Positions 11,287 through 44,274 of a stretch of 64,000 bases of DNA are shown here, piece after piece (positions within the stretch are counted from its first letter, which is position 1; every line of letters begins with the position of its first letter). The stretch spans positions 744,001 to 808,000 of the forward strand of contig NZMW01000001.1 in the NCBI GenBank assembly GCA_002694685.1, written 5' to 3'. The notes below the pieces were generated by a model. That model worked only from the letters and a program-made list of their open reading frames with translations, did not search any database and was not told the DNA's origin. The position numbers and the translations under genes are program-made. The DNA is from Balneola sp. GTDB lineage: Bacteria > Bacteroidota > Rhodothermia > Balneolales > Balneolaceae.

Positions 11287-11334
11287 TCCTTTCTACAATC
11301 TGCTCTGTACCCTACATCGTAATTAAATAAGAGG

Positions 11335-11363
11335 CCTTAATATTCTTCTTGTTAAGGTTTTTT
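11335..11363 (+). terminator. Rho-independent terminator after first giant protein
   Basis: CCTTAA and TTAAGG form a short stem with a TATTCTTCTTG loop, followed directly by six T. It lies about 50 bases after the stop at 11286, so the three giant genes are probably separate transcription units. Confidence 0.6.
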
Positions 11364-11445
11364 AATATTATATTGAATTAAGGACATTAAGGAAGCTAAA
11401 AAAAGCAACTATTTAGGTTTCAAAAATTTTCAGCAAAAAAGAATA

Positions 11446-16476: not shown

Positions 16477-16597
16477 ATTTCTGTAACATTAATTTTTATT
16501 AAGAAACTAATATTACAGTGAGTTAGAAATAGCTAATGAACCATTAGTTTAGCTTACCAAATTTTATATTCCATGCAAAATCAGTCTAATCACGCGT

Positions 16598-24874: not shown

Positions 24875-24882
24875 GTGTAGCT

Positions 24883-25470: not shown

Positions 25471-25492
25471 ACCTAACAAATAAGGAGTTATT

Positions 25493-26866: not shown

Positions 26867-26931
26867 TACTACTTACTTTCTCTAAACTGACTCAACAAAA
26901 CTAATTCAAAAGAACACCTATAAGTACTAAT

Positions 26932-27321
26932 ATGGCTAAGAAAACAATCTCATTATTTCTATTTACACTATTTTTTACTTTAGGCGCACAGGCTCAAACA
27001 GTGATTTTTAATGTAAATCTAAAGCCAAATTTAGAGGATAGCATGTTTGTTCCTAATCAGGACAAGATGGTTATTATAGGTAACTTCTACCCTCTTGGTG
27101 TAAATCGTTCAGTCCAGATGTTTGATGAAGCTCCAATCGACAGTATTTACACAGCTGAAATCAGGTTTGGTTCTCGCTACCAGGGACAAGTTCTTGAATA
27201 TAATTTTCAAATAGTTGATGAAAACGGCAACAAAAACACAGAAAGCATGGTCCGAAAGATCACTCTTAGTGCCGGTGAAACTGAAATCCCTCCTTTATAT
27301 TTTAACGCGTTCGCCTGGTAG
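26932..27321 (+). CDS. Small secreted protein, possibly carbohydrate-binding-like fold
   Basis: A 129-residue protein with a clean Sec signal peptide (residues 1-21, ending AQAQ). The mature part starts TVIFNVNLKPNLEDSMFVP and has VIIGNFYPLG, an arrangement reminiscent of starch-binding-like (CBM20-type) beta-sandwiches with their 'F.V......v.i.Gn...lG' pattern. The key aromatic ligand residues cannot be confirmed by eye. It sits alone between the two pilin-like cassettes on the same strand and may belong to the first transcript. It could be a tip or matrix component. Confidence 0.5.
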   Translation: MAKKTISLFLFTLFFTLGAQAQTVIFNVNLKPNLEDSMFVPNQDKMVIIGNFYPLGVNRSVQMFDEAPIDSIYTAEIRFGSRYQGQVLEYNFQIVDENGNKNTESMVRKITLSAGETEIPPLYFNAFAW

Positions 27322-27434
27322 TTTTTTTATTAAGACCAACCGCTTTATCCCTCCTCATCTTAAAGCCTGATTTGAAACTTTTTTAAAAGATTTCCAATCC
27401 CTCATAGAACAATGTTCGTATGTACAAGAACAGA

Positions 27435-27478
27435 ATTCTAATGTTAGAATCAGTCTAAAAATTTCCTAACGTTAGAAG
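27435..27478. promoter_or_regulatory. Pair of palindromic operator-like sites upstream of cassette 2
   Basis: ATTCTAATGTTAGAAT (27435-27450) has perfect 7-bp arms around a 2-base centre, and CTAACGTTAG (27466-27475) is a perfect 10-base palindrome within TTCCTAACGTTAGAAG. Their centres are 28 bases apart and lie 45-85 bases before the ATG at 27521. Two like palindromes at this position suggest a dimeric repressor or activator site for the second cassette. No regulator is identified. Confidence 0.45.
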
Positions 27479-27520
27479 TTTTTAATAATATTGTTTTGAA
27501 AATAAATTAAACCAAAATCT

Positions 27521-28051
27521 ATGAGCGGTTACACTGAAGTTTTATATGTCATCTTTGCTATGACCATCGTTTCTACCATGGCTCTCAATGCCAACCGGTT
27601 TATTCAAGTCAACAATTATTCAATGGTTGAGGGACAGCTCGAAGAGCAGGTAATTGCCTACTCCCAGAATATCATTGAAGAATCTCGAGCATTGGCTTTC
27701 GATGAAGCCACTACTTACGACGCAACTGGAAATAGTACGGTTCCAGTTTACATTCCTAATGGATTCTCAAGCCTTGGAACCGATGGCGAAGCAGGCAGAA
27801 CCCAATTTGATGATTTCGATGATTTTAATGGATTTTCTGAGACTGTTAGTATCGCTGGCGTAAAGTACGATGTTAATGTAGTTGTTGAATATGTAGTTAC
27901 AAGTGATTTTGAGACTTACACTAAGTCATTCAACAAGTCTACCTTAAAAAGAATCACGGTTAACATGGAGTCCGATTTTTTAAGGAAGAATCAGAATTCT
28001 GATAACACTAATTACAACTTTAGCTTTATAAGAAGCTACTACGCGGATTAA
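27521..28051 (+). CDS. PilV-like minor pilin candidate, cassette 2 (A2)
   Basis: A 176-residue protein laid out like A1 at 24449: an N-terminal hydrophobic helix (MSGYTEVLYVIFAMTIVSTM), then QLEEQVIAYSQNIIEESRAL in place of A1's 'ISIAQDEIDDIR', then a beta-rich globular part ending in an aromatic-rich tail (NFSFIRSYYAD against A1's MEYIKTYFKD). It has no classical prepilin leader. It is the first gene of the second cassette and ends one base before B2. I call it a paralogue of A1 on position, layout and tail motif. Confidence 0.5.
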   Translation: MSGYTEVLYVIFAMTIVSTMALNANRFIQVNNYSMVEGQLEEQVIAYSQNIIEESRALAFDEATTYDATGNSTVPVYIPNGFSSLGTDGEAGRTQFDDFDDFNGFSETVSIAGVKYDVNVVVEYVVTSDFETYTKSFNKSTLKRITVNMESDFLRKNQNSDNTNYNFSFIRSYYAD

Positions 28052-28052
28052 T

Positions 28053-28649
28053 ATGAATTTCGGAATTATTATCAGCTACATCATTGCCGGTTTTCTCTCC
28101 ATTACTATTCTCATGGTTACTTATAACGTGGGGTTCAGTAATCAGGAGGTAACTACCACTTTGATAAAAAAGACACACTCCAGAAGTATTCAGGACATCA
28201 TTGTCAATGACATTCCAAAAATCGGATATCAAAATAAAACAGTTCTTGCCAACAAGTTTGTAACTGCAGATAGTGATGAGATTTCCTTTTACAGTGATTT
28301 AAATAACGATGGTACTATAAACCAAATTACCTGGAAATATACTGACCTCCCTTCTCCTGGATCAAAAAATCCCAATGACAATATTTTGAGACGCACAGTT
28401 GACGGAGATGAAACTGAGATTAATGTTGGAGTTACAAGTTTCACTATTCGTTACTACGATGAGTATGGTTCTACAACGCCAATGGCTACACCAATAAGCA
28501 GTTCAAACTTTGATGATATTATACAAATTGAGGTCGAGCTGGAACTTCAAAGTAGTTATGATCTGAGCTATAGAAACTCTGATGATGAAAACTACATTAC
28601 AACAAGCTGGCAAAAACGATTTTCTCCAGTCAATCTTAGACCAAATTAG
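28053..28649 (+). CDS. PilW-like minor pilin candidate, cassette 2 (B2)
   Basis: A 198-residue protein, paralogous to B1: membrane helix MNFGIIISYIIAGFLSITIL, then IQDIIVNDIPKIGYQNK matching B1's DINRIGYNND, and the end TTSWQKRFSPVNLRPN matching B1's HRTAWNRVFHPTNI. The body contains DSDEISFYSDLNNDG, matching B1's EDDEIEFQTSDG. Start and preceding stop are separated by one base, so translation is probably coupled. Likely a membrane-anchored pilin-like subunit. Confidence 0.55.
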   Translation: MNFGIIISYIIAGFLSITILMVTYNVGFSNQEVTTTLIKKTHSRSIQDIIVNDIPKIGYQNKTVLANKFVTADSDEISFYSDLNNDGTINQITWKYTDLPSPGSKNPNDNILRRTVDGDETEINVGVTSFTIRYYDEYGSTTPMATPISSSNFDDIIQIEVELELQSSYDLSYRNSDDENYITTSWQKRFSPVNLRPN

Positions 28650-28657
28650 GTGAATTT

Positions 28658-29791
28658 ATGGGACGAGCAATGTTAATTATTAGTATCGGAGCTGTAATGG
28701 CACTTGGTATCCTCCAACTAGGGATTCAAGGGCAACGCACAGGAATTGTGCAAAATTCAGCTTCTTCCGCATACGAAGTTCAAATACGTAACAAAGCATT
28801 TACAGCCGCACAGCTTGCGATGGAACGTATTAATGAAAGCGGTGGAACATGGCATCCAGAAAAGAACAGCCCTTGGGTTGAAGATATTGACGGTGACTCC
28901 ATCTCTCTTTTCTATGATCTATCTACCGGTTCTACAGGTGGTACTTTTTCATTACTAGAAGGCGATACTGTTGAAATCAATGCAACCTCCTGGTATCAGG
29001 ATCCAAATTCAGGCGATCGTAAGGAAATCAACATTGTAACATCCTACGTTAAAACGGCCATGCACTTTGTGCCGGAATTTCAGTCTGCCATGGCTTTCGC
29101 CGTAGATGCTGATGACTTTTCTTTCGCTGCAAGCGGCAGTGCACTTATCTCCGGAAACGACGCAAGTGGTACCTGCCCGTCTAAACCGGCAGTATCAGTT
29201 CGGGATAATGAATCAGCAGATAAGATTACCGGCGCGGACAATCTTTTCGAATATCTCTCAGGTGGAGATAACTCAGATCACTTGGAAAGTGACTCAACAG
29301 CCATTGGCGTAGATCCTAATCTTTCCTATGAGCCAGTTGATGATTTAGTGGCAAGGCTTTCTCAACTTAGCGATGTGATTAAGATATCAGGCAACTACAA
29401 AGGCACCATGGGATCGGCTGATAACCCCGGTGTATTTTTTGTTGAAGATTACGCCAAACTTACCGGTGGCATCTCTGAAGGATTCGGTATCATGGTGGTT
29501 CGAAGTGGCGGTGAACTTGAGTATGAGGGAGAACTGTCGGTGGCCGGTAATTTTAAGTTTAATGGCTTAGTCATCTTTGAAAATGCCTACAATATGACCG
29601 GACGTGGAACACCTCGAATTAATGGATCTGTATTAGTAGGAAAAGCTAATGATACCAATGAACGACTGGACATCGATCTTGGCGGTACTATAGACATTCA
29701 GTATGATTGTACAGCTGAGAAATATGCTCAGCTTGCCTCCGCTTCTCGTTTAGGCCAGAACCGTTACAAGCGCCTCAGTACCTACGAATAG
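28658..29791 (+). CDS. PilX-like minor pilin candidate with beta-helix body, cassette 2 (C2)
   Basis: A 377-residue protein with the same first residues as C1 (MGRAML) and a single N-terminal helix. The C-terminal half is a strand ladder: DNPGVFFVEDYAKLTGGISE, GIMVVRSGGELEYEGELSV, NFKFNGLVIFENA and GTPRINGSVLVGKA. This is the order of strands seen in PilX-family pilus assembly proteins ('GNFTFNGLIIV...G.P.INGAVLV'). It lies eight bases after B2 with AGGTG before the ATG. It is the last gene of the cassette; a 209-base gap follows. Confidence 0.6.
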   Translation: MGRAMLIISIGAVMALGILQLGIQGQRTGIVQNSASSAYEVQIRNKAFTAAQLAMERINESGGTWHPEKNSPWVEDIDGDSISLFYDLSTGSTGGTFSLLEGDTVEINATSWYQDPNSGDRKEINIVTSYVKTAMHFVPEFQSAMAFAVDADDFSFAASGSALISGNDASGTCPSKPAVSVRDNESADKITGADNLFEYLSGGDNSDHLESDSTAIGVDPNLSYEPVDDLVARLSQLSDVIKISGNYKGTMGSADNPGVFFVEDYAKLTGGISEGFGIMVVRSGGELEYEGELSVAGNFKFNGLVIFENAYNMTGRGTPRINGSVLVGKANDTNERLDIDLGGTIDIQYDCTAEKYAQLASASRLGQNRYKRLSTYE

Positions 29792-30000
29792 TTTTAATTC
29801 TAGTCTTTATTAGCTTTTTATAAATCTCCTACTCAACTTATTACGTACTGATAGTTGGAAAGGAGTTTTATTTTGTATTCTCCTCTTTGTACAGCCCGTT
29901 ACAATAGTCTAATTAAAATATATTAACTGGTATTAGTAAGCGATAAGCAAGAACTTTAATGCATAGCAATCTAGGTTTCATCCGTTTATACATTTCATTT

Positions 30001-30504
30001 ATGAAATACTCTTTAATAGCAATCTTTATAATTGTTTCAAGCTTTTCTGCTTTTGCCCAGATCGATGATAGTAACAGCATAACTGCAAATATCAATGTTA
30101 GTGCTGAGGTCATTCAGTCCATAGAATTGATTACTGTGAATACAATGCAGTTTGGAAATGCACAACCAGGACAAAGAGAAATTTATGTCAATCCTGTAAA
30201 TAGCTTAAATGCCGGCTACATGATTGCAGTTGGAACCCCCGATGCTGAATTCAGACTTAACTACCTGCCAGAACTTGAACTCACTCAGATTCAAGGACAA
30301 GGTACTCTCAATTTTACCTACGAAATATCCGGTAATTCGGAAGAGAATCAATCTACTTCTGAATTATTAGAACTCGATAATCGTAATATTCGGTTTAACA
30401 ACGAAGGTCGATATTATATTTGGGTAGGCGGAAGAGTAAACATTGAAAATGCTCCTCCTGGAAATTATGAGGGAGATTTCACGATTGAAATAGATTACAT
30501 ATGA
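30001..30504 (+). CDS. DUF4402-like fimbrial subunit 1
   Basis: The ATG at 30001 gives a 167-residue protein with an immediate signal peptide (MKYSLIAIFIIVSSFSAFAQ); an in-frame ATG 42 bases upstream would add a non-signal extension and is rejected. The mature protein shows ITANINVSAEVIQSIELI, then TMQFGNAQPGQ and a C-terminal strand GDFTIEIDYI. The order 'strand - FG - ... - [VI]-x-[VI]-x-Y at the end' is that of DUF4402/Csu-type subunits assembled by chaperone-usher systems. It overlaps the next gene by 4 bases (ATGA). Confidence 0.65.
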   Translation: MKYSLIAIFIIVSSFSAFAQIDDSNSITANINVSAEVIQSIELITVNTMQFGNAQPGQREIYVNPVNSLNAGYMIAVGTPDAEFRLNYLPELELTQIQGQGTLNFTYEISGNSEENQSTSELLELDNRNIRFNNEGRYYIWVGGRVNIENAPPGNYEGDFTIEIDYI

Positions 30505-31151
30505 TCATTAACAAATATAGAAATTGCCCTGAGATCAAGCCTTTCCAAATGAAAGGCTTTGGGTGTTTTATATTTTTTATGGTGACTAGTTTTCTGACAG
30601 TATTCAATCCCTCTCTTGCTGCACAAGAAATAGATTTTGGTGATTTCAGCAGTAAGTACAGTGTAAGTATTTCTGAACTTATTCCAGCTGAAGACTTGGC
30701 TTTTGGCATGGTCATTCAGAATGAAGGACTAAAAACGATAGATCTTATTGATGCCAAGGTACTTATGATTGAAGGAGTCAAATATCTGGATGTGATTGTA
30801 GATGTAACTGCTGATAACTATTTATACCTTGATACCGATATTGCCTGTAATGGCAGTAATACAAATTGCATTCCCTTTACACTTCAGGCTGCTTATGCCA
30901 ACAGAGGAAATAATAATACTAACGAAGCTATCTTAATGCAGACTGCTTCTAATGTAGCTTCAGCGCAGTTTCCTATTGAGGCTCGCGGCAACCGACCACC
31001 CGGACCGCCTCCCACTCCAGTTTATGAAGGTTATAACCCCGCCCTTTATAATGAGACTGCATACTTATACATTTATGGATCCCTGAATATTGGAAATGTA
31101 GATGCCGGAAGTTACTCAGGTGAAATTACTATTACGGTTAGCTATGACTAA
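30501..31151 (+). CDS. DUF4402-like fimbrial subunit 2
   Basis: A 216-residue protein with a hydrophobic signal region (residues 20-41, ending SLAAQ) after an unusually long polar N-terminus of about 18 residues; the methionine at residue 17 (MKGFGCFIFFMVTSF) is an alternative, more conventional start. The mature chain has LAFGMVIQNEGLKTIDL near its start and ends GEITITVSYD. One Cys pair (IACNGSNTNCIPF) may form a disulfide, and a proline-rich loop RPPGPPPTP lies at about residues 167-175. Overlaps both neighbours (4 and 8 bases). Likely a fimbrial subunit. Confidence 0.6.
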   Translation: MIINKYRNCPEIKPFQMKGFGCFIFFMVTSFLTVFNPSLAAQEIDFGDFSSKYSVSISELIPAEDLAFGMVIQNEGLKTIDLIDAKVLMIEGVKYLDVIVDVTADNYLYLDTDIACNGSNTNCIPFTLQAAYANRGNNNTNEAILMQTASNVASAQFPIEARGNRPPGPPPTPVYEGYNPALYNETAYLYIYGSLNIGNVDAGSYSGEITITVSYD

Positions 31152-31665
31152 GCGATTTGTTTCCATATTTCTTTTTGCTTTAAGCCTGTCGCCCATCGCT
31201 CATGCCCAGTATATTAACCTCCAGCTAAAAATTGAGCCCGAACTTAGTGCAACTATAGAGCAAGATTTAAATTTTGGTACTCAAGTAACTAATTCGGGTA
31301 GAACTGAAATTCAGCTTGGGGATGTAAATATGGGTGTTTTCAGCATCAAAGCCTTCCATACCCAGAATGTCTATTTAAACCTGCACTACCCTAATGCATT
31401 GTCAAATGATAATCCTGCAATTGACTCTGATATCCCGTTAGAGCTGAATTTGGCTTATAACAATACCGGTACTAACAATGCAAATAACTCTAATCCTGTA
31501 CCGTCAAATGGGGGCTTTATTTCCATTCACGAATACACAGCTCTGGAAAGCAGAAATGATGTCTGGAAACAGATGTATCTATACGTTTATGGGGCTATAG
31601 AAATTGGAAACATCCCAAATGGTGTTTACACCGGTGATATCGTTCTTAGTGTGGATTACGACTAA
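31144..31665 (+). CDS. DUF4402-like fimbrial subunit 3
   Basis: Starting at the ATG at 31144 gives 173 residues with a signal peptide (MTKRFVSIFLFALSLSPIAHAQ) and eight bases of overlap with the preceding stop. A longer frame upstream would bury the signal peptide. The mature chain has DLNFGTQVTNSGRTEIQLGD, nearly in register with subunit 2 (LAFGMVIQNEGLKTIDL), and the two share LYVYGAIEIGNIPNGVYTGD against LYIYGSLNIGNVDAGSYSGE near the C-terminus, so they are paralogues. The end is IVLSVDYD. Probably a minor fimbrial component. Confidence 0.65.
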   Translation: MTKRFVSIFLFALSLSPIAHAQYINLQLKIEPELSATIEQDLNFGTQVTNSGRTEIQLGDVNMGVFSIKAFHTQNVYLNLHYPNALSNDNPAIDSDIPLELNLAYNNTGTNNANNSNPVPSNGGFISIHEYTALESRNDVWKQMYLYVYGAIEIGNIPNGVYTGDIVLSVDYD

Positions 31666-32951: not shown

Positions 32952-33461
32952 ATGAAAACTTTTAAAAACCTTCTATCCGTTCTTGCAATAGCCGCTGTCT
33001 TTTCAGCCGGTGCTTATGCCCAACAAGACGTCCAAGTCTCTGCAATAGTTCAATCAACCTTAGCTTTTAGCGCTGTTAATAATGTAACATTCGGCGTTAT
33101 TACACAAAATACTGAAGCAGTACAGGGAGCTAATGGAAACACTTCTTTAACTCCAGCAAATAATACTAATGCATCATCTGGTTCTGTTACAGTTACAGGT
33201 AATGCTGGTGTTTCCATTGCTATCAGCTATAATACTGGTGTTCAATTGTCTGATGGAACTAATACAGTAGATTTTACTCCTGAGGTTATGGTTGGTTCAA
33301 CTACAATAGCTCAGTCAGGTACAAATGTAACATTAAGTGGAACAACTGGTCTAGGTACAGCACTTGTGGAAATTGGTGGTACCCTTGATGCAATAGCTAC
33401 TGCAGGTACTTATTCAACTACCAGCGGTACTCCTATTACTCTAACGGTTGCTTACAATTAA
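32952..33461 (+). CDS. DUF4402 protein, likely major fimbrial subunit
   Basis: A 169-residue exported protein: signal peptide MKTFKNLLSVLAIAAVFSAG (to about residue 24, AYAQ), then VQVSAIVQSTLAFSAVNN, NVTFGVITQNTE and a C-terminal strand ITLTVAYN. This order is that of DUF4402/Csu-type subunits. The composition (Thr, Ser, Asn, Gly, Ala, almost no charge, no Cys) fits a robust structural pilin. It is followed by a strong terminator and preceded by its own upstream region, while the chaperone and usher genes start 153 bases later. A separate, strongly terminated gene just before the assembly genes is what is expected of a major subunit expressed at higher level. Confidence 0.75.
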   Translation: MKTFKNLLSVLAIAAVFSAGAYAQQDVQVSAIVQSTLAFSAVNNVTFGVITQNTEAVQGANGNTSLTPANNTNASSGSVTVTGNAGVSIAISYNTGVQLSDGTNTVDFTPEVMVGSTTIAQSGTNVTLSGTTGLGTALVEIGGTLDAIATAGTYSTTSGTPITLTVAYN

Positions 33462-33614: not shown

Positions 33615-34451
33615 ATGAAACGACTTATTACGGCATTATTTCTATTTGGAAGTCTATTTACTTGTTCAATTCAGGCTCAAGTGACTATCGCTCCCACAAA
33701 TATGTTTTTAGATAATCAAACAAGGTTTGGGACGTATATGGTTATCAACAATTCGAATACTCCTCAAGAGGTCTCAGTTGACTTTTTCTTTGGATATGCA
33801 GTTACAGATGAAAACGGTGAAAGACAAAATGTATCAGGTGCTGAGGATTTAAAAGGCACTCATTCTATTGCTGATAACGTTCGTGCTTTTCCTAGAAATT
33901 TTATTCTACAATCAGGTCAAAGACAAGTTGTAAGGATTAGATTAACTCCATCGAATGATTTACAAGACGGAACATATTGGACTAGAATCAAAACTCATTC
34001 TACACCTGAAAGTCCACCTGTTGAAATAGGATCAAATGAAAATGTTACGGCAAGTGTGGGGATTAATATTGAGCAAATTACTGGTTTGTTTTATAAAAAT
34101 GGTGATGTTACTACAGGTATTAAAGTAGATGGTATAAGAAGTTCTTTTCAGGGAGATGGCAGTGAACAATTAATTGTACTTACAGATTTTCAAAGAACGG
34201 GAAATTCTCCTTTTCTAGGTTCTATTACTACTATTTTAAAAAATCAAAATGGAGAAACCATGGCTCAGGGATTCCGATCAACGACCTTATATTTTGATGG
34301 CACTCAAAAAGAAACCTTGGATATTTCCGGATTACCTTCTGGCGAATACACCATTCAGGTTCATTTTGAAACACGGAGAAGCGATATTTCTCAAAGCGAT
34401 CTTGTCCAAATGCAACCCGTCACATCAACTAACACTGTAATCATACCTTAA
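33615..34451 (+). CDS. PapD-like periplasmic fimbrial chaperone
   Basis: Periplasmic chaperones of this type hold fimbrial subunits by donor-strand complementation and hand them to the usher. The 278-residue protein has a signal peptide (to about residue 22, SIQAQ), then VTIAPTNMFLDNQTRFGTYM and INNSNTPQEVSVDFFF, the first strands of a PapD-like Ig domain. PRNFILQSGQRQVVRIRL at about residues 95-112 corresponds to the 'P..f.L.pg..Q.VRi' chaperone motif. A second Ig-like domain follows (about 140-278). It precedes the usher by one base. Sequence is divergent from proteobacterial chaperones, so the subunit-binding residues cannot be named with confidence. Confidence 0.75.
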   Translation: MKRLITALFLFGSLFTCSIQAQVTIAPTNMFLDNQTRFGTYMVINNSNTPQEVSVDFFFGYAVTDENGERQNVSGAEDLKGTHSIADNVRAFPRNFILQSGQRQVVRIRLTPSNDLQDGTYWTRIKTHSTPESPPVEIGSNENVTASVGINIEQITGLFYKNGDVTTGIKVDGIRSSFQGDGSEQLIVLTDFQRTGNSPFLGSITTILKNQNGETMAQGFRSTTLYFDGTQKETLDISGLPSGEYTIQVHFETRRSDISQSDLVQMQPVTSTNTVIIP

Positions 34452-34452
34452 G

Positions 34453-37440
34453 GTGCCTATTTTTTGGAAATCTTCAATATCAATCATAACAATTATTGTT
34501 TTATGTTTTGGGATTTCCGAAAAGAATCTACAAGCGCAAGATAATAATTCTGATGAATTCGAAGTCTACCTCGATTTCCGTCACAGAGGAGTTATAAATT
34601 CCGTAGTTATCTCCTACTATAAAAACGATGAATTTTACCTTCCGGTTTCTGAGCTCTTCTCTCTTTTCAACATCGACCATACCGTTAATGGTCTTTCCAT
34701 TGATGGATACTTTGGTACCGAACGAATTCCCTACCAAATAAATCTCCAGTCTAACAAAATTAGCTTTGATGAAACTACCATCATATTAAACGCTAATGAT
34801 TATCTCATAAAGGAAATCGACTCCTATTTAAGAGCCGATATATTGTATGAAGCATTCGGTCTCAACTTCACCATAGACTTTAATAACCTGACGCTGAATC
34901 TGGAAACCGACCGAGAACTACCCGCTGTTCAGCAAGCAATAAGACAGCAACGACGACAGCTTGCAGATGCAAATCGATTTCAACAAGAACAATATGATCT
35001 CAGATACGGTAGACAACGCCCTTTTTTAGATGGTGGATTTCTGGACTATAATCTATCCGCTAATGTTTCTTCTGTACAAAATGTATATAATTTCAATTCT
35101 AATATTGGGTTGCAACTATATGGTGGAGATGTTCAGGGAGTGGTATTTGGAAGTTATTCGCAAGACTATAGTAATTTTGCTACTGATAATTTGCGGTGGA
35201 GCTATAGGTACCGAGACCAATCTTGGTTAACAAATCTTACCATAGGCCAAACCACTACCGATGGTTTTGCAAGAAACACTTATACAGGAATCAGACTTTC
35301 TAATGAGCCCATAGAGCCACGCCGACTTTTTGATGAGTATGTGGTTCAGGGAGAAACGATTCCTCAATCTGAAGTAGAATTATATATGAACAATGCTCTT
35401 GTTGACTTTCAACAGGCGGATGAGTTAGGAAATTACCGTTTTCTCACTCCTATTACCTATGGTTCCTCTCAGCTTGATTTAAAAATTTATGGCCCTACTG
35501 GACAGATTATTGAACGCTCCAATCGTATTCAGGTTCCTTTTACTTTTCAGCCAGAAGGGGTTTTTAATTATTCGCTAAATGCCGGACGACTTGATAATCC
35601 AATTTTTGGCGAAACCTCACAAGATTTCACTGCACAGGGAAATGGCGCTTATGGTATCACTGACTGGCTAACCGCTAAAGCCGGTGTAGAATATTATCAG
35701 GGTTACCATGATGCACTACCCACTTTTACAACAAGCTTTTCGTCACGTATCGCCTCAAATTATATTCTAACCCTTGAAGCTGCCAGTGAAGCTTATTACA
35801 GGGGATTGCTCAGCGTGATCTACCCCAATTCAGCAAGTATTAATTTTGACTATACTGATTTCAACAGTGGTTTTAGTATTTATAATCCCTCTAATGATGA
35901 TAAACGATTTGTGGCGAGTGTCTTCTATCCATTTAATTTTTGGGGTCTACCCTTCAATGTACGTGCATCTACCTTTTCACGAATTCGCCCCACTACAAAC
36001 AATACAACAGTGCGATTTGATGCCAACTCCAGAATTGGAAAACTAAATATACGGCTCGGTTATAGTGATCGTTTTGTTGGAGATATTGATCTCTTTAATC
36101 CATCTAATACTGCTTACGTTGAAAGCTCAGCAACTTATAATATTTCCAGAAACAGGAACCTCCCCTCCTATTTAAGAGGAGTCTTTTTGAGAACTCAAAT
36201 GCGCTATCAACCAACTCTCAATCAGCTTGAGTCAACTGAATTTTTGATTTCCCAGAACGTTTTTGATCAAGGTCGATTTCAACTTTCATTGGGAAGAAAT
36301 TTTACAGGAGAGTATAATACGGTCCGCTTTAGCTTAGTGATTGATTTTAATAAGGCACGATCAAGTTCAACATTTAGCAACATCCGTGGAAGCAATAATT
36401 TTAGTCAAAATGTAAGAGGTTCTATAGGGTACGATTCCAACTACAATAATTTTATTTTTACCAGCCGAGATCAAGTTGGGCGCTCAGGTACTGCGGTACA
36501 ACTTTTTGTTGATAATAATAGTGATGGTACTTTCAACGAAGGCGATGACCGTATTGAAGGAAATGCTGTTCGCGTACAAAGGTCAGGTGCAACAAGTACT
36601 ACCAAAAATGGAGTACTTTATTACACCCAGATGCAGCCTTACTTCTACTATAACATGGAGATTAATAAGGCCAATATTAAGAACCCAATGTTGGTTCCTG
36701 AATTCGAAAAGTTTGGGTTAATCAGCGATCCAAACCGTTTCAAAAAAGTAGAAATACCCTTCTACATGTCAGGAGTTATGGAAGGGATTGTAGAGCGGCA
36801 GTTGGCCAATGGGAAAAAGACAGGAGTAGCAGGGTTAAGAGTTCTAGTCAGGCAGAAAGACGGTGATTACAACAAAGAGTTACGATCGTTCTCAGACGGT
36901 AGTTTTTATGAGTATGAGATACCCCCGGGAGAATATGTGCTTGAAGTGGATTCCACGCAGCTTAATATTCTGGAGAGCAAATCGCTCCCGGCGAAGATCG
37001 AGTTTGAGGTAGAAGCGATTCCAGAAGGTGACTTTATTGAAGGACTTCAGTTCTTACTCGTCCCAAAAGACTATCAACCTCCTGCTGAGGCTCCACTAAC
37101 GGCTGAGGCAGTTACTGAAGAAATTAAAACGAATGATGAGATTTTGAATTTTGAAAAATCTTTGTCGGAAGGTGTGGATGAATCCCTTAGACTTATTGTA
37201 AAAGCACAAAATGCTTTTTACGATAAGGAAATTAAAAAAGCTCTAACATTTGTTGAGCAATCATTAGAAATTTTTGAGACAGCCCAGGGATATGCCCTGA
37301 AAGGCAGTTTACATTACCTGATTGGGGAAAGAGATCAAGCGGAAAAATTTTGGGAGTTAGCTGTACGTCTAAATCCTGATATCTATATTCCTGATATTGA
37401 AATGCTTGATACATTGATCACAACTGAACTTGTAGAGTAG
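34453..37440 (+). CDS. Usher-like outer-membrane assembly protein with C-terminal TPR
   Basis: Starts with GTG one base after the chaperone stop. Of the 995 residues, 1-28 are a signal peptide. About 30-155 resemble an usher N-terminal domain (VYLDFRHRGVINSVVISYY). A beta-barrel of Tyr/Phe/Asn-rich strands spans about 195-690, interrupted near 300-375 by a usher-type plug or middle domain: VELYMNNALVDFQ, GNYRFLTPITYG, LKIYGPTGQIIERS. About 676-770 hold LFVDNNSDGTFNEGDDRI and a strand-rich domain, and about 772-880 a carboxypeptidase-regulatory-like sandwich. About 905-990 form a TPR-like helical tail that is unusual for an usher and is homologous to the lipoprotein at 39318. I infer subunit translocation plus docking through the TPR. 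Confidence 0.75.
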   Translation: MPIFWKSSISIITIIVLCFGISEKNLQAQDNNSDEFEVYLDFRHRGVINSVVISYYKNDEFYLPVSELFSLFNIDHTVNGLSIDGYFGTERIPYQINLQSNKISFDETTIILNANDYLIKEIDSYLRADILYEAFGLNFTIDFNNLTLNLETDRELPAVQQAIRQQRRQLADANRFQQEQYDLRYGRQRPFLDGGFLDYNLSANVSSVQNVYNFNSNIGLQLYGGDVQGVVFGSYSQDYSNFATDNLRWSYRYRDQSWLTNLTIGQTTTDGFARNTYTGIRLSNEPIEPRRLFDEYVVQGETIPQSEVELYMNNALVDFQQADELGNYRFLTPITYGSSQLDLKIYGPTGQIIERSNRIQVPFTFQPEGVFNYSLNAGRLDNPIFGETSQDFTAQGNGAYGITDWLTAKAGVEYYQGYHDALPTFTTSFSSRIASNYILTLEAASEAYYRGLLSVIYPNSASINFDYTDFNSGFSIYNPSNDDKRFVASVFYPFNFWGLPFNVRASTFSRIRPTTNNTTVRFDANSRIGKLNIRLGYSDRFVGDIDLFNPSNTAYVESSATYNISRNRNLPSYLRGVFLRTQMRYQPTLNQLESTEFLISQNVFDQGRFQLSLGRNFTGEYNTVRFSLVIDFNKARSSSTFSNIRGSNNFSQNVRGSIGYDSNYNNFIFTSRDQVGRSGTAVQLFVDNNSDGTFNEGDDRIEGNAVRVQRSGATSTTKNGVLYYTQMQPYFYYNMEINKANIKNPMLVPEFEKFGLISDPNRFKKVEIPFYMSGVMEGIVERQLANGKKTGVAGLRVLVRQKDGDYNKELRSFSDGSFYEYEIPPGEYVLEVDSTQLNILESKSLPAKIEFEVEAIPEGDFIEGLQFLLVPKDYQPPAEAPLTAEAVTEEIKTNDEILNFEKSLSEGVDESLRLIVKAQNAFYDKEIKKALTFVEQSLEIFETAQGYALKGSLHYLIGERDQAEKFWELAVRLNPDIYIPDIEMLDTLITTELVE

Positions 37441-37449
37441 ATATTATTT

Positions 37450-39318
37450 ATGGCTTTAGGGAAGTTTATTCGCGATAGATTCTACTATTTACCGCGGAAG
37501 GAAATCAAATTATTACGAACCGGATTTTCCTGTACTTCGCTGTGTCATTTCATTTTTTTGCTCGTTTTCTTTTCCACCCTCTTCTTTGGTAGTCATGGTG
37601 TACAAGCACAGGGGAATTCGATAGGAACGACCGAATCTTTAGAGCTTCGTATCGCATCTCTGGAGCAAAAGTACGATGCTCAAATCATTAGCATTATGTC
37701 TAACTACTTTGACCAGCAGAAGTTCTTTGTTGATGTTAATGTTAATGCTGACATGATTACAGAAACGTACTCTACCACTCAGAACCAGGTTGTCAGAGAG
37801 CGTCAACAAAACCTGGTAATGCCCGGTCTCCCCTTCCTTCCACAAGAGAATTTACAGGCTAACGGCCTTGGGGAACCTTCAACTGAACAAATTATCAGTG
37901 AGAACATCCTGAGAATGCTCAGATTGAATAATCTTAGAATTCGGGTTTACGCTGACTCCTCATTTACCCAACAAGAAATTGAATTCATGTCTTTAATTGC
38001 AGGCATTGCCGCGAAAGTGGATGAGTCGAGAGGAGACTTAGTCACTGTTGATCAGTTAAAGATGCCGGATTTCAGCTTTAAATCTGAAGGTCAAAAGATC
38101 GAGCTTATCCAGCCTGCTAATGATACCTTAATGGCGTCATTAGAGCAGTATTTGCCCGGTTTTATCCTATTTCTACTTTTTGCGATAACATTGTTGCTTA
38201 GTCGTTTTAAGGGACCTAGCGATGCTGATGATTCTTACAGAAGACAGGCAGAAAGAGATAGTATAAGAAGAGAGATAGCTACCCCTGATTTCAGCCCTGA
38301 TAAAACGCAAACTTCAGAGCCAAAAAATAACACCTCTACATCTTCTACACTAGATGAGCTGGCAGATTCATTTTTCAAATCTCCTAAAGAAATCGCTTTA
38401 TTATTTGAGTACTGGCTTGAAGAAGATCCATCGAATGGTCCTAAAAGATCAGCCAAAATTGTTGACTGTATCGATAAACATATGCTGAAGCTACTGAGGA
38501 AGGAATTAGATCCAGATAAATACCAGCTGATAGAGCAGGAATTGGAACAGCTATCGCCAATGAGCATGGAAGAAAAAAGAGAGCTTGCTGGGGAATTTAT
38601 TCAAGCCTTATACTCAAAGAGAGCAGCGTCTTCTTCAAATGAAAAACACAGTCAGCTTGACCTTTTTAAATTCCTGAGACATTTAAGTTCCCATCAGGTT
38701 GTATCATTATTAAATGGTGAAGACAGGAATACATCTGCATTGGTCATGGATTACCTTCCCAATGAAAAAGCATCTGATGTCTTTGATTTACTTAGCCAGG
38801 ATAGAACAGCAGAAATCATGCTGGGTATGACAAACCTTAATCAGCTTTCTTATCAGCAACACAAGGATATCTCCACCCACCTTTTTGATAAAGCTACCGA
38901 TATCATAGAAATAAATAGAGAACAGCAAATTGGCGCTGATAGCATTCTTCCTATACTTCAAAGACTCCCACTTAAAGACCAGAGATCTTACATCGAGCAG
39001 TTGATATCTATGGGATCTCCGGTTGGTAATTTTCTCCAAAATAAGTTTACTACTGTCGAGCAAATCCCCAAAATTGACAAAAGCATACTTAGGGATTCCT
39101 TACAAAACATAGATACTGCTACCCTGTTGGCTGCCTCCAAAGGTTTTGATCAGGATATTATTGATGCTCTTTTTTCAGTCCGACCTACAAGGGAAAGAAA
39201 GTTGTTACAGATTGAGTTAGAACAAAATCCGCAGTTTAGTGAAAAACAAGTCGAACATGCGCAGAAAACGATAATGAGGGCCATAAGACAAACCCTCACT
39301 AACCAAAACTCAAATTGA
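37450..39318 (+). CDS. FliF(C-terminal)-FliG fusion protein, flagellar-type rotor
   Basis: A 622-residue fusion. Residues 31-50 are a signal/anchor helix and about 60-230 are periplasmic. The segments KFFVDVNVNADMITETYSTT (91-110) and SFTQQEIEFMSLIAGIAAKV followed by DESRGDLVTV (171-200) match the third ring-building region and pre-membrane 'RGD.v.V' motif of FliF. A helix at 235-252 returns to the cytoplasm. About 300-395 resemble the FliG N domain, about 405-480 the middle domain (SALVMDYLPNEKASDVFDLL, with EDRN in place of EHPQ), and 495-615 the torque domain (IPKIDKSILRDSLQ, then VEHAQKTIMRAI). Of the E. coli torque residues, Arg281 and Asp289 align with Arg581 and Glu589, while Asp288 and Arg297 align with Ile588 and Ser597. 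The N-terminal ring domains of FliF are missing. Confidence 0.8.
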   Translation: MALGKFIRDRFYYLPRKEIKLLRTGFSCTSLCHFIFLLVFFSTLFFGSHGVQAQGNSIGTTESLELRIASLEQKYDAQIISIMSNYFDQQKFFVDVNVNADMITETYSTTQNQVVRERQQNLVMPGLPFLPQENLQANGLGEPSTEQIISENILRMLRLNNLRIRVYADSSFTQQEIEFMSLIAGIAAKVDESRGDLVTVDQLKMPDFSFKSEGQKIELIQPANDTLMASLEQYLPGFILFLLFAITLLLSRFKGPSDADDSYRRQAERDSIRREIATPDFSPDKTQTSEPKNNTSTSSTLDELADSFFKSPKEIALLFEYWLEEDPSNGPKRSAKIVDCIDKHMLKLLRKELDPDKYQLIEQELEQLSPMSMEEKRELAGEFIQALYSKRAASSSNEKHSQLDLFKFLRHLSSHQVVSLLNGEDRNTSALVMDYLPNEKASDVFDLLSQDRTAEIMLGMTNLNQLSYQQHKDISTHLFDKATDIIEINREQQIGADSILPILQRLPLKDQRSYIEQLISMGSPVGNFLQNKFTTVEQIPKIDKSILRDSLQNIDTATLLAASKGFDQDIIDALFSVRPTRERKLLQIELEQNPQFSEKQVEHAQKTIMRAIRQTLTNQNSN

Positions 39319-39836
39319 TGATGAAGCTATACAACATCTTTTTATTCTTCGGCCTGCTTGTAGCGCTTTCTGCCTGTAGCTCATCAAATAAAGTAAGTGA
39401 AGATGCTTCTGTTGAGGAACCTGAACAGGAAGCGGTTCAGCAACAAAGCAGTGAGGTGGCTGACACGGACAGCGAAGAAGATAAGAGGAAAGCAGAGCTT
39501 GAAGAGCTGTACAAAGAAGAATTAAAAAAGACTTATCAGGCCAAAGCAAATGGAGTAACTACCTACTACATTTTAGCCCAGCAGCAGTTTCATCAGGCCC
39601 AGTACCAGAATGCACTCTATCTTATTAACAAAGCCTTGGCAATCAAAGAAACAGCAGACGTTTATGCTCTAAAAGGGAATATTTTTCTGGGATTAGGATC
39701 CAAAGAGAAGTTTACTGAAAACTGGAAAAAAGCATTAGAAATGGATGCGAATATTCCCATCCCCATATTACCTTTCATAACCAGTGAACTGCAAAATCAG
39801 GGTTTGGTTGATGCAGATTTTAAACGAAATTTTTAG
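39318..39836 (+). CDS. TPR-containing lipoprotein of the motor operon
   Basis: The ATG at 39318 overlaps the preceding stop by one base (TGATG); a second ATG follows directly and a TTG precedes it. The 172-residue protein has a lipoprotein signal with lipobox LSAC and the cysteine at about residue 20, then an acidic linker (EDASVEEPEQEAVQQQ). A TPR-like helical repeat region (about 75-160) contains YYILAQQQFHQAQYQNALYL and DVYALKGNIFLGLGSKEKF. The same pattern ends the usher at 34453 (AQNAFYDKEIKKALTFVEQS, GYALKGSLHYLIGERDQAEK). It may be an outer-membrane or periplasmic pilotin-like factor for the usher or motor. Confidence 0.7.
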   Translation: MMKLYNIFLFFGLLVALSACSSSNKVSEDASVEEPEQEAVQQQSSEVADTDSEEDKRKAELEELYKEELKKTYQAKANGVTTYYILAQQQFHQAQYQNALYLINKALAIKETADVYALKGNIFLGLGSKEKFTENWKKALEMDANIPIPILPFITSELQNQGLVDADFKRNF

Positions 39837-39849
39837 GTAGGCTGATTCT

Positions 39850-40653
39850 ATGCGTACATCTATTCTAAATATTTTAGGCTTTTGTATCTCTGCTGTAATT
39901 CTTGCGTGGGGAGCTTTAATTATAACCGGCTTTACCACCTATGATGTTATTCCCTCAGGATTAGAGTTTTTGAATTTACCCAGCCTTGCTATCGTTTTTG
40001 GAGGGATTTCAGCTTCTGTATTCATCAGCTTTACTTTTTGGAATGTAATGAAGGCTGTAAGGCAGTGTTTCCGCCTTTTTTCTTACAGTAACATCGATAA
40101 TGAGCTGCTTGATGAGGATGTAAAACATATCTTAGATTGGCAGAAACGCATTCAAGAGAATAAAATCAGAGCTATCTCAGAACTTAGTAATGAATATGAA
40201 GGTCAGTTTGAAGGGTATCTATTTTCTGTGCTAGACACGAATTATTCGTCGGAAGAACTTCGCGAACTTGGCGAGGCAAATATTGAAGAAAGCTACATAC
40301 GGCAGCAAAAGATAAATGAAATCATAGCAAGCATGGGTAAGTCAGCTCCGGTCTTTGGTATGCTTGGCACCCTGTTTGGGTTGATCGTAATTTTGTCAGG
40401 ATTCAATGAGATTGAATCCTTATTAGCAGGATTAGCGGCCGCCTTAATGACAACGCTTTATGGTATTTTAATTGGGAACTTCATCTTTAACCCAATGGCT
40501 AAGAAGATGAATAACATTGCCTCTCTTCAGTATTTTAGAGAAAAGCTTATTCTGGAAGGAATTCTACTTATCGAACAACAAAAAACATCTCTTCAGATAT
40601 ACGACAAACTTCAGGCTCACATGAATCGAAGCAGCCAAAAATTCAACTTCTAA
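39850..40653 (+). CDS. motA: MotA-like stator subunit
   Basis: A 267-residue four-helix inner-membrane protein of the MotA family, the ion-channel stator part that exerts force on FliG. Helices lie at about residues 8-28, 43-64, 165-185 and 190-215. GKSAPVFGMLGTLFGLIVIL (163-182) is the MotA signature; Pro167 and Pro215 (NFIFNPMAKKM) correspond to the two conserved prolines needed for torque. MTTLYGILIGN and ILEGILLIEQQ also match the family. The large cytoplasmic loop (65-160) is highly charged, as expected for contact with FliG; DEDVKHILDWQKRIQENKIR lies in it. It starts 13 bases after the lipoprotein gene. Confidence 0.88.
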   Translation: MRTSILNILGFCISAVILAWGALIITGFTTYDVIPSGLEFLNLPSLAIVFGGISASVFISFTFWNVMKAVRQCFRLFSYSNIDNELLDEDVKHILDWQKRIQENKIRAISELSNEYEGQFEGYLFSVLDTNYSSEELRELGEANIEESYIRQQKINEIIASMGKSAPVFGMLGTLFGLIVILSGFNEIESLLAGLAAALMTTLYGILIGNFIFNPMAKKMNNIASLQYFREKLILEGILLIEQQKTSLQIYDKLQAHMNRSSQKFNF

Positions 40654-40670: not shown

Positions 40671-42179
40671 TTGAGTAAACAGCCTCCTTCACAGAATAAT
40701 AAATCCCTTTATCCGAATGAAATTTTGGATACTGAAGATGATAATAGCTGGCAGGTAAGCTACCTGGATATCATCACTATTATTCTTGGCTTTTTAATTA
40801 TTCTGCTCTCGCTTTCAGAGTTTACCAGCGTTACCAGCTTAACTTCCGTATCACAATTATTTAAGTCATCTGTTCAGGAGACAGAATTTCTTACAACTCC
40901 TATTGAAGAAATTCAAAGTGAACTTGAAGCCTCTTTGTCTGGTGATCTTAAAAGTGGTGAAATTGAAATAATCCGTGATTTGAATGACCTCCTGATTAGA
41001 TTCAGCAGTGATGATCTCTACCGGTCCGGGAGCGCTACGCTACAGCAAGGTGCTTTACCCCTTTTTGACCGGGTTATTTCTGCTATTAAGTCCAACCGTT
41101 TTAATGACTTTAATGTAGAAGTTGAAGGACACACTGATAACACCCCTATTTCATCTTCTGCCTATCCGTCTAATTGGGAGCTCTCAACCACTAGGGCCAC
41201 AAATGTCGTAAAATACTTTAGGGGGATGGGTATTGAAGAAGGCAGGCTCAAAGCTTCAGGTTATGCTGATTCAAAGCCACTGGTTCCAAATGAAGATGCA
41301 TCAGGAAATTCAATTCCAAGAAACAAGGCCTTAAATCGCAGAGTAGATATCAGGCTATACTATGCTTCAGTTCCCAAGCACGATTCCACTAGTTCCATCT
41401 CTCCTGTTCTTGCGGACAATAATAACTGCAGGTATTCTGTACAGATTGGAGGATTTCAATCATTTAACAACAGCTTTAGTCTTGCAAATGACGCTTCAAG
41501 AAAAACTAACTACTCATTCGAAATAACCTTTAATAATAATTTGTTTTCAGTGAGATCTGAGCCTCGGAATTCCCTGGAAGATGCTCTCAAAATTCATAAA
41601 GAACTTGCTAGTTACACAGGTGATGACGCCATTGGTTTGATTCATCAGTGCTATGAAGATACAGGTCTTCGCCCCGACCCTATTCGTTATCAAATACAGG
41701 TGGCAGCGTTTCAGAATAAAAGCAATGCAGAAAGATATATTTCAGAAATCACTTCAAACCTAACTGTCTTAGCAAGCATATCGTCCACAGATAACGGTTC
41801 CCATAAAGTTATGCTTGGGCCTTACCAAAGTCCTTTCACTGCTTCCGAGAAACTGGCTGAGTTTAAGAAGTCAGGCTTACCGGAGGGCATTTTTATAAAA
41901 CCCGTCATAGAAAGTATTCTGCCATACTCATTTAATTTTAGAATTCAGTTGGCAAAATTCGAGAACCGTAATGACGCTGAAGATTTATCCCAGAGTATAG
42001 CTTCCCTTATGGGTTTACAAACGGAAATATCAGAGGGAGAAAACGAGGCAGTATATCTTCTTACAGGTGAGTTTCAAGATTGGAAAAATGCTAAACAGGT
42101 GTTTAATGATTTAAGGAACAGCAGTTATGACTTATCACCTGTGCTCTATTTGCTGGAGCAAGTTAAGCCGCCAATTTAG
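40671..42179 (+). CDS. motB: MotB-like stator subunit with OmpA and SPOR-like domains
   Basis: Start is TTG at 40671, 17 bases after motA; no in-frame ATG precedes the membrane helix. Residues 27-50 (WQVSYLDIITIILGFLII) form the single membrane helix, with Asp33 at the place of the essential proton/ion-carrying Asp of MotB. The OmpA-like peptidoglycan-binding domain covers about 95-232: VEVEGHTDNTPI, NWELSTTRATNVVKYF and NKALNRRVDIRLYY. The protein is 502 residues, well beyond the usual 300, because of about three SPOR-like repeats in the C-terminal half: CRYSVQIGGFQSFN (253), IRYQIQVAAFQNKSNAE (about 338) and FNFRIQLAKFENRNDAE (about 422). SPOR domains bind denuded peptidoglycan. Stator anchoring is the likely role. 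No regulation visible; the gene ends six bases from the convergent rpoN stop. Confidence 0.88.
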   Translation: MSKQPPSQNNKSLYPNEILDTEDDNSWQVSYLDIITIILGFLIILLSLSEFTSVTSLTSVSQLFKSSVQETEFLTTPIEEIQSELEASLSGDLKSGEIEIIRDLNDLLIRFSSDDLYRSGSATLQQGALPLFDRVISAIKSNRFNDFNVEVEGHTDNTPISSSAYPSNWELSTTRATNVVKYFRGMGIEEGRLKASGYADSKPLVPNEDASGNSIPRNKALNRRVDIRLYYASVPKHDSTSSISPVLADNNNCRYSVQIGGFQSFNNSFSLANDASRKTNYSFEITFNNNLFSVRSEPRNSLEDALKIHKELASYTGDDAIGLIHQCYEDTGLRPDPIRYQIQVAAFQNKSNAERYISEITSNLTVLASISSTDNGSHKVMLGPYQSPFTASEKLAEFKKSGLPEGIFIKPVIESILPYSFNFRIQLAKFENRNDAEDLSQSIASLMGLQTEISEGENEAVYLLTGEFQDWKNAKQVFNDLRNSSYDLSPVLYLLEQVKPPI

Positions 42180-42185
42180 AAGAGA

Positions 42186-43694
42186 TTAAATAACCTGCTT
42201 TCTCATTCGGGCTACAGGCTGATTCAACTGCTCTCGATATTTACTGACCGTTCTGCGCGCTACTTTATATCCCTTTTCATTTAGCAAATCGGTCAGCTGC
42301 TGATCACTCAGTGGCTTTTGTTTGTCTTCCCCATCAATAAGCTTTTCAAGGAAATTCTTCACTTCACGATTTGAAACCTCTTCTCCACTTTCAGTTTCAA
42401 GACCTTCATTAAAGAAATATTTTAGCTCATAGACTCCAAAGTGGGTCTGTACATACTTACCATTAACTACTCGGGAAACAGTTGATATATCCATTCCAAT
42501 TCGTTCAGCAACATCCTTAAGAATCATCGGCTTGAGTCCTTCCCCATACTTAAAGAAATCTTCCTGCAGAGCAACTATGGTCTTCATTATGTTCATCAGG
42601 GTGTTTTGGCGCTGACGAATGGATTCAATAAACCACTGAGCAGAGTTAATTTTATTCTTCATGAAAGAATGTGCTTCCGCGTCCGTATTCTTTTTCTTCT
42701 TAGCTTTAATTTCATCCCACATCTGCTTGTACTCGGGGGATATGCGGAGCGAAGGAGCATTACGCTGGTTCAAATTAATCACAAACTCTCCTCTTTTACT
42801 TTCACCCTCACCGGCACCTCTCCAATACACTTCGAAATCCGGCTCTATGTAATTCTGGGTTTCTTCCATACTGCTTGCCACTGCACCCGGACGCGGATCC
42901 ATTTGGCGGATGGCTTCAAAAGCTTCCTGCAATTTCTCACGGTCAACGTTGAACTTTTGCAGCAGCTTCGAAAAGTGCTTTTTCTCAAATGCCTTCCAGG
43001 CCTGATCTACAATTTTAATTGCCAGGTTTTTACCCGGTAAGTCTTTTTCTGAAGCTTTTAGCTGTACCAAAAGACAATCCCTTAAATCTTGTGAAGCGAT
43101 ACCGATTGGATCCAGCTGCTGAATCCGCTTCCGAACATCATCCACCATTTCCTCATCAACAAGAATACCTTTATTGAAAGCGATGTTGTCTACAACGGCT
43201 TCTAATTCCCGACGGAAATATCCATCTTCATCCAAAGACCCCAGAATCTGGTCTGCGATGAGCTGCTCTTCTTCCGAAAGATTCAAAAATACTACTTGCT
43301 CCTCCATCTCTTCTAAAAAAGAAGCTTGATAAGGGTTCGGCAAATCCCTCCACTCATCCATATCCGGATTGTAAGTAGAACTGAATTCTTCCCCGTCGTA
43401 CTCAGTATTGGTCTCAAATTCATCCCAGTCAACCTCATGCTCTTCCAGGCTCTCGAGGGCTTCTTCCCTTTCTTCCTTCGGCTCTTCTTCCCTTTCTGAA
43501 AGACTTACGATTTCGACCTCACCGGGGTCAACTTCCTCAAGTACAGGGTTAGCCTCCATCTCTTCCTTGATACGCTGCTCCAGGGCAATGGTAGGCAGCT
43601 GCAGCAATTTGATATACTGCAGCTGTTGCGGAGATAGCTTTTGCTGTAAACTCTGCTGCTGCCTCTGATTTAAATTCTGTTGGTTACGGAGCAT
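42186..43694 (-). CDS. rpoN: RNA polymerase sigma-54 factor
   Basis: Sigma-54 directs RNA polymerase to -24/-12 promoters that need an AAA+ activator. The 502 residues begin MLRNQQNLNQRQQQSLQQKL and SPQQLQYIKLLQLP, the Gln-rich region I, then an acidic region II (ESLEEHEVDWDEFE). They end with the diagnostic RpoN box ARRTVSKYRE at about residues 479-488. DVAERIGMDISTVSRVVNGKY is the helix-turn-helix that recognises the -12 element. The methionine at 43694 is chosen because it starts region I; a longer frame inside the upstream gene adds 12 residues. It overlaps the DUF3109 gene by 11 bases and is convergent with the motor operon. Confidence 0.95.
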   Translation of the reverse strand: MLRNQQNLNQRQQQSLQQKLSPQQLQYIKLLQLPTIALEQRIKEEMEANPVLEEVDPGEVEIVSLSEREEEPKEEREEALESLEEHEVDWDEFETNTEYDGEEFSSTYNPDMDEWRDLPNPYQASFLEEMEEQVVFLNLSEEEQLIADQILGSLDEDGYFRRELEAVVDNIAFNKGILVDEEMVDDVRKRIQQLDPIGIASQDLRDCLLVQLKASEKDLPGKNLAIKIVDQAWKAFEKKHFSKLLQKFNVDREKLQEAFEAIRQMDPRPGAVASSMEETQNYIEPDFEVYWRGAGEGESKRGEFVINLNQRNAPSLRISPEYKQMWDEIKAKKKKNTDAEAHSFMKNKINSAQWFIESIRQRQNTLMNIMKTIVALQEDFFKYGEGLKPMILKDVAERIGMDISTVSRVVNGKYVQTHFGVYELKYFFNEGLETESGEEVSNREVKNFLEKLIDGEDKQKPLSDQQLTDLLNEKGYKVARRTVSKYREQLNQPVARMRKQVI

Positions 43695-44274
43695 GACCTT
43701 CCTTTTTTCGAATCTCTTTACAAGCTTCAATAAAACTTGAGAACCATTTTTCGCCGTATCTGCGCACCAATGGTCTCTCTAAAAACTCAGCCAAATACGT
43801 ATTTTCCTTTTCTGCTTTTTCGCATGCAGCAGAACATAGTTTCGGAACATATTCAAAGTTCGCATAGTCAAAATTGGCGATTCTCTTTAGTCGAACCGGA
43901 AATAGATGACAGCTGATGGGTTTTTCCCAACTCATTCTTCCGTCAAAGTAAGCTTGTTGAATAGCGCAGTAAGCAACTTCATCGTCATTATATTTCACAA
44001 AAATACATTCGTTGCTCTCAACTGTTGAAATTTCATAACCCGCCTTCTGAGATCCAACAACTACCCCATCCCTTTCAGCCACCTCAATAGCTTCCGGGCG
44101 TAATTCACCTTTTAGCTTTTTATAGGCTTTATGAAGTACCGGAATTTCCTCTTTTGAAACGGGAGCTCCGGCATCACCCACCACACAGCAGGCACCTTTG
44201 CAACGAGGAAGGTCGCACGCAAACTTCGCGGTAGCGATATCATTTGAAAGGATAGTATTTTTAACTTTGAACAT
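43684..44274 (-). CDS. DUF3109 family protein
   Basis: A 196-residue cysteine-rich protein of the DUF3109 family, found mainly in Bacteroidota and relatives. CDLPRCKGACCVVGDAGAPV (residues 20-39) has four closely spaced cysteines. Others are in NECIFVKY, AYCAIQQAYFDG, ISCHLFPVRL and LCSAACEKAE, a pattern like the zinc/iron-chelating YkgJ group. The function is not established; metal binding is inferred. It lies upstream of rpoN with an 11-base overlap, so the two are cotranscribed. It is divergent from the small gene at 44415. Confidence 0.8.
   Translation of the reverse strand: MFKVKNTILSNDIATAKFACDLPRCKGACCVVGDAGAPVSKEEIPVLHKAYKKLKGELRPEAIEVAERDGVVVGSQKAGYEISTVESNECIFVKYNDDEVAYCAIQQAYFDGRMSWEKPISCHLFPVRLKRIANFDYANFEYVPKLCSAACEKAEKENTYLAEFLERPLVRRYGEKWFSSFIEACKEIRKKEGHAP

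Follow-up and report, generated by a model that had tools for sequence, protein, structure and literature searches.

The window analysed here is a 64,000-nucleotide stretch of the Balneola sp. contig NZMW01000001.1 (assembly GCA_002694685.1, positions 744,001 to 808,000 of the forward strand). It encodes a protein in which a FliF-like periplasmic domain and a FliG-like cytoplasmic part are joined in a single chain, within a one-strand run of genes ordered probable chaperone, probable usher, FliF-FliG fusion, TPR lipoprotein, MotA and MotB, in which neighbouring genes are 17 bases apart at most or overlap slightly. The features are listed below in window coordinates, together with the evidence for each; type A denotes the kind of locus to which the window belongs.

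29959-30504, 30501-31151 and 31102-31665, + strand: three exported DUF4402-like proteins (Pfam DUF4402, conserved order)
32952-33461, + strand: further exported protein (conserved in several type A loci)
33615-34451, + strand: probable pilus chaperone (precedes the usher in all type A loci; weak PapD_N matches in relatives)
34453-37440, + strand: probable and divergent outer-membrane usher ending in a TPR tail (Pfam Usher in relatives; TPR)
37450-39318, + strand: FliF(RBM3)-FliG fusion gene (open reading frame of 622 aa; Pfam, profile and fold matches)
37450-37611, + strand: export signal of the fusion, residues 1-54 (read from sequence; same pattern in relatives)
37624-38067, + strand: FliF RBM3/collar-like periplasmic domain, residues 59-206, with RGD at 194-196 (profile, model and fold matches)
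37822-37842, + strand: PGLPFLP motif, residues 125-131, between two long collar strands (alignments)
38128-38208, + strand: membrane helix, residues 227-253 (AlphaFold2 model)
38344-39312, + strand: FliG-like cytoplasmic part, residues 299-621, with N, M and C domains (Pfam, profile, model and fold)
39181-39216, + strand: torque helix with R578, R581 (equivalent to R281), E582 and E589 (equivalent to D289) (alignment)
39315-39836, + strand: TPR lipoprotein (encoded in each of the four kinds of locus)
39850-40653, + strand: MotA of flagellar type (nearest MotP/MotA, far from ExbB/TolQ)
40671-42179, + strand: MotB with the ion-binding Asp33, an OmpA domain and three SPOR domains (Pfam, alignment)

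The operon around the fusion gene

The identities of the usher and the chaperone are probable, and were assigned mainly from weak matches in relatives together with the gene order. The Pfam Usher model did not match the window's own usher copy; it was seen in 3 of the 15 usher family members and exceeded its cut-off in the relative from locus L069. PapD_N gave weak matches in 2 of the 15 chaperone family members, and neither the usher profile nor the chaperone profile found a convincing solved relative when compared with the PDB by sequence. The usher's TPR tail (36600-37440) and the TPR lipoprotein look mutually related, and the best match of the lipoprotein from locus L048 was the usher tail. 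The first of the three DUF4402-like proteins was over the Pfam cut-off, with the other two below it; these three, as well as the exported protein at 32952-33461, are candidate fibre subunits.

MotA and MotB lie directly downstream of the TPR lipoprotein and keep the channel Asp and Pro/Thr residues. On the window's MotA, the ExbB and TolQ models scored far below the flagellar MotP/MotA models. In E. coli, MotA R90 and E98 pair with FliG D288-D289 and R281 (PMC12505986). The equivalent columns in the window hold Gln and Ser, and nearby basic residues vary; since the R90 and E98 equivalents are not kept, the rotor-stator contact must differ from that in E. coli.

Several other genes flank the operon. 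Region 7603-24157 encodes three exported proteins of very large size (1227, 1676 and 2519 aa) with ends resembling the type IX secretion sorting tail, and two sets of small membrane-anchored pseudopilin-like proteins (24449-29791) are encoded upstream of the DUF4402 genes, a position kept in several type A loci. At the operon end, a convergent gene on the - strand (42186-43730) is probably rpoN (sigma-54), and an rpoN-like gene also lies near locus L069. Near the start of the window, genes judged by eye to encode a probable Brp/Blh-type carotene-cleaving enzyme (1370-2305, + strand) and a probable light-driven proton-pump rhodopsin (2372-3166, - strand) stand side by side; an ion gradient made from light by these products could in principle feed a motor.

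The N-terminal half corresponds to the FliF collar

The original prediction, made from the DNA letters, was of a natural FliF-FliG fusion without the ring-building domains RBM1 and RBM2, and it proved right in all points tested by fold and profile comparisons with controls. An AlphaFold2 model of the fusion monomer, built from 19 natural sequences, recovered both the FliF RBM3/collar and the FliG folds, with a mean pLDDT of 73.7 and values of about 85-91 in the domain cores; the pTM was 0.34, so the relative placement of the domains is not predicted. The N-terminal block consists of a helix (64-83), a long hairpin (strands 92-115 and 144-168), a second helix (174-187) and a strand (197-202). 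It is followed by the membrane helix that had been anticipated, which the model places at 227-253, and then by helices from 299 to 621.

Residues 61-206 of the model matched the FliF RBM3/collar (6scn_A, FliF 230-438) with a Z of 11.9 and an rmsd of 1.9 over 99 residues, and the RGD lies at 194-196, in agreement with the FliF-like collar and RGD read earlier. The Pfam FliF model did not match the N-terminal half of the window's protein, and the Pfam FliF C-terminal model was over cut-off in two relatives (G092 and G095). A profile of the family's N-terminal parts matched canonical FliF with a score of 64.9, as compared with at most 22.3 for 20 column-shuffled controls, 27.7 for the reversed profile and at most 22 for nine other families of the loci. 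For a profile of this kind, the best PDB matches were three FliF chains, and three canonical FliF genes were also retrieved when it was run against whole genomes.

FliF residues 1-215, the RBM1-RBM2 half, gave no match to the family's N-terminal profile. The fusion has no room for RBM1, RBM2 and the first membrane helix: the export signal directly precedes RBM3 and occupies the place of that helix. The fusion is therefore not FliF proper, as these three elements are missing. Residues 1-54 comprise a hydrophobic stretch followed by VQAQ, with a cleavage-like AQ at the end, and the pattern is common to the relatives, suggesting that the signal is cleaved. The PGLPFLP motif was nearly invariant in alignments across the whole fusion family.

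The C-terminal half is a FliG with altered torque residues

Pfam FliG_M matched residues 415-483 of the fusion (41 bits, cut-off 25) and FliG_C residues 529-615 (45 bits, cut-off 23.3). The profile-profile match between the fusion family and canonical FliG extended over 290 columns, with a probability of 99.6 and an E value of 5e-25. Residues 328-619 of the model matched full FliG (8wiw_3) with a Z of 15.8, in line with the three-domain cytoplasmic part originally proposed; the rmsd of 16.7 arises from the different placement of the domains. Full-length FliG folds matched the C-terminal block with Z values of 13-16. The C-terminal domain resembled both isolated FliG_C (1qc7_B, residues 533-620, Z 12.8, rmsd 2.5 over 88 residues) and the MotAB-bound FliG (8ucs_H, residues 535-620, Z 11.5, rmsd 2.5). 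Thus, a FliG fold is present at residues 300-615 and an RBM3 collar match at residues 91-200, the two regions on which the original prediction depended. The fusion scored 65 bits with the NCBIfam equivalog for FliG (TIGR00207), below the cut-off of 226.7.

Torque residues are numbered by the E. coli FliG sequence, in which K264, R281, D288, D289, R297 and EHPQ (125-128) stood where expected. The R281 equivalent was Arg in 45 of 51 fusions and Lys in another 5, and the D289 equivalent was Glu in 39 of the 51. In the window's protein these are R581 and E589, whereas the D288 and R297 equivalents are lost (I588 and S597), and additional charges, R578 and E582, are gained in the torque helix. The alignment upheld the original statement that two torque charges are kept and two lost, and adds a qualification: the R297 position is mostly absent also from the canonical FliGs of the phylum, and hence only the loss of D288 is informative. 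The EHPQ motif for FliM binding, which nearly all canonical FliGs keep, reads GEDRN in the window and is lost in the fusions.

When a tree was built from the M and C domains of FliG, one fully supported branch separated the fusions from canonical FliGs, indicating that the fusion is an old, separate lineage. A single origin of the fusion is compatible with, though not proven by, this tree, which has long branches and includes canonical FliGs from this phylum only.

Relatives fall into several kinds of locus

More than 50 relatives of the fusion came from 128 genomes of the order and others beyond it; they belong to Balneolales, to a further family of the same phylum, to Fibrobacterota and to KSB1. 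The contigs were scanned with the type A profile alone, since the profile of all subtypes was too diverse. The relatives mostly have 580 to 770 residues, and the same joined frame in all these relatives rules out a sequencing or assembly error as the source of the fusion.

The type A locus contains DUF4402 genes, chaperone, usher, fusion, TPR lipoprotein, MotA and MotB, and type C shares this core in a more divergent form. In type A and type C loci, the usher adjoined the fusion gene wherever that side was sequenced. Type B (L048-L053, L058-L064 and L116-L120) spans three phyla, with L116-L120 representing Fibrobacterota and KSB1, and consists of the fusion, a 370-aa exported protein, the TPR lipoprotein, MotA and MotB, with no usher. 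Type B thus has the motor core without an usher, showing that the usher is not essential to that core. A related cassette with a different gene order is found in L121-L124 (family f40 of the phylum). Every kind of locus in the order retained the PGxPxxP motif, which lies at the tip of the hairpin, outside the RBM3 core.

The 370-aa protein of type B ends in a C-terminal aromatic Phe, like an outer-membrane barrel. Its model was poor (pLDDT 43.7), and a sequence comparison with the PDB gave no relative. The N-terminal half has a succession of strands and helices reminiscent of CsgG/LpoB-like domains, a resemblance that we treat only as a lead.

The fourth kind of locus (L068-L071) encodes an usher, an RBM3-type membrane protein and a TPR lipoprotein, and has no FliG torque domain; the protein of L068 retains only a FliG_M-like part of FliG. 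No MotA or MotB was found within 6 kb in these loci, L071 being covered by 2.8 kb of downstream sequence, where MotA normally starts within about 0.6 kb. These loci are possibly a motor-less form. All of the full-FliG loci with enough downstream sequence carried MotA and MotB within 3.3 kb. That the FliG domain and MotAB are either both there or both missing is what a rotor-stator relationship predicts, and it is observed among loci that are related by descent and are not independent events.

The fusion occurs in genomes without a flagellum

The genome of the window has separate, canonical FliF, FliG, MotA, MotB, FlhA and FliM, with FliF and FliG encoded by two neighbouring genes. The export gate protein FlhA and the switch protein FliM were both absent from 15 fusion-carrying genomes (G001, G002, G004, G005, G006, G007, G035, G038, G039, G040, G092, G094, G095, G298 and G384), nearly all of which are 97-100% complete (G094, 89%), and the control genomes gave the expected results. 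Balneola sp. EhC07 (locus L115) is an example of a carrier without flagella. The system therefore needs no flagellum, and the fusion is not a variant of the flagellar rotor. This flagellum-independent operon setting was absent from the original prediction, whose domain reading otherwise held.

Interpretation and proposed mechanism

From the domain identities, the operon and its conservation, the flagellum independence and the finding that the FliG domain and MotAB occur as a pair or not at all, all observed by computation, we favor with moderate confidence the reading that the fusion is the switchless, MotAB-driven rotor of a non-flagellar motor of flagellar type, which drives a machine of the outer membrane, in this case a chaperone-usher fibre. 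The early steps of the mechanism draw on the folds and on established knowledge of FliF, FliG and MotAB. The exported RBM3 domains would assemble as a periplasmic ring, one helix per subunit would span the inner membrane, and on the cytoplasmic side a torque ring would be formed by the fused FliG domains. MotA-MotB, presumably held to the cell wall by the OmpA and SPOR domains, would conduct ions and push the FliG ring into rotation. With the FliM-binding motif lost and FliM missing from the non-flagellated carriers, the motor would have no known direction switch. In engineered Salmonella flagella, FliF-FliG fusions function (PMC7355467), making a one-chain rotor mechanically credible.

The PGxPxxP tip and the TPR lipoprotein, kept in all kinds of locus, form a likely joint between the ring and the outer-membrane partner. 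The conserved collar tip probably touches the TPR lipoprotein and, in type A, the usher and its TPR tail, and motion or force could thereby reach the chaperone-usher fibre or its outer-membrane pore. The partner would be the usher in the window's kind of locus and perhaps the 370-aa protein elsewhere. The fibre might serve surface movement, or it might itself undergo powered turning or assembly.

The same parts might instead act as an ion-powered energizer without continuous rotation, in which MotAB and the FliFG ring send force through the periplasm in the manner of ExbBD or TolQR, aiding subunits through the usher or opening an outer-membrane pore. The replacement of the usher by a different exported partner in type B would suit a general energizer, and the MotA R90 and E98 positions are not kept. 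However, an energizer would have no need of a torque ring built from an entire FliG in which the R281 and D289 equivalents are conserved, the MotA is of flagellar type with the ExbB and TolQ models far below, and chaperone-usher assembly is not known to require an energy source. We regard this explanation as unlikely.

Still less likely, in our view, is that the protein is mainly a scaffold, with an RBM3 ring and membrane helix holding the usher complex and with FliG and MotAB as accessory or decaying parts. Such an arrangement is suggested by L068-L071, with their usher, RBM3-type protein and TPR lipoprotein in the absence of the FliG torque domain and MotAB, but most loci keep FliG and MotAB together, with the charges and channel residues conserved over deep divergence. 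A role as a part or regulator of the cell's own flagellum, through an alternative rotor or stator exchange, could be read from the flagellar gene set of the window's genome, but is contradicted by the 15 carriers lacking FlhA and FliM, the lost FliM-binding motif, the operon's own stator genes and the deep separation from flagellar FliG, and is very improbable.

We judge it an even call whether these loci represent a new class of rotary machine: a minimal, switchless, one-protein FliF-FliG rotor that, with its own MotAB, turns or powers an outer-membrane chaperone-usher fibre (elsewhere another outer-membrane partner), separate from the flagellum and in bacteria without one. The machine so formed appears to be new; its parts are of known kinds. 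The literature searched, which covers few subscription papers, yielded neither a natural FliF-FliG fusion nor a FliG associated with an usher system. A 2025 survey of MotAB concluded that flagellar stators are a single group linked to flagellar motility; FliG is mentioned once in its text, and FliF, usher and Balneolales never (PMC12505986). Here a flagellar-type stator occurs alongside a FliG rotor in non-flagellated bacteria, and the two are present or absent as a pair. If the fusion rotates, it would be a flagellar-type motor outside the flagellum and would reveal a set of parts sufficient for a rotor; individual steps by which the flagellar motor arose could then be tested, and a powered chaperone-usher fibre would be added.

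Comparison with known systems

The window shares with chaperone-usher pili a probable chaperone, a probable usher and exported subunit-like proteins in one gene run, and differs in the TPR tail of its usher. Such pili are not known to include an inner-membrane ring, FliG or MotAB. GldLM, ZorAB, ExbBD and TolQR are likewise ion-driven inner-membrane motors, several of them acting on outer-membrane machines; we know of none with a FliF or FliG rotor ring, and the window's MotA, unlike theirs, is of flagellar type. The engineered Salmonella fusions also unite FliF and FliG in one chain, but they retain the whole of FliF and serve the flagellum, whereas the window's fusion is natural, shortened and non-flagellar. 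The closest comparison is with the bacterial flagellar motor, which has the same RBM3/collar fold, the FliG fold with its two main torque charges and the MotA/MotB channel residues. Here, in contrast, FliF and FliG form one chain lacking the first membrane helix, RBM1, RBM2 and the FliM-binding motif, and this chain is present in genomes without FlhA and FliM, where its gene accompanies one for an usher or for the 370-aa exported protein.
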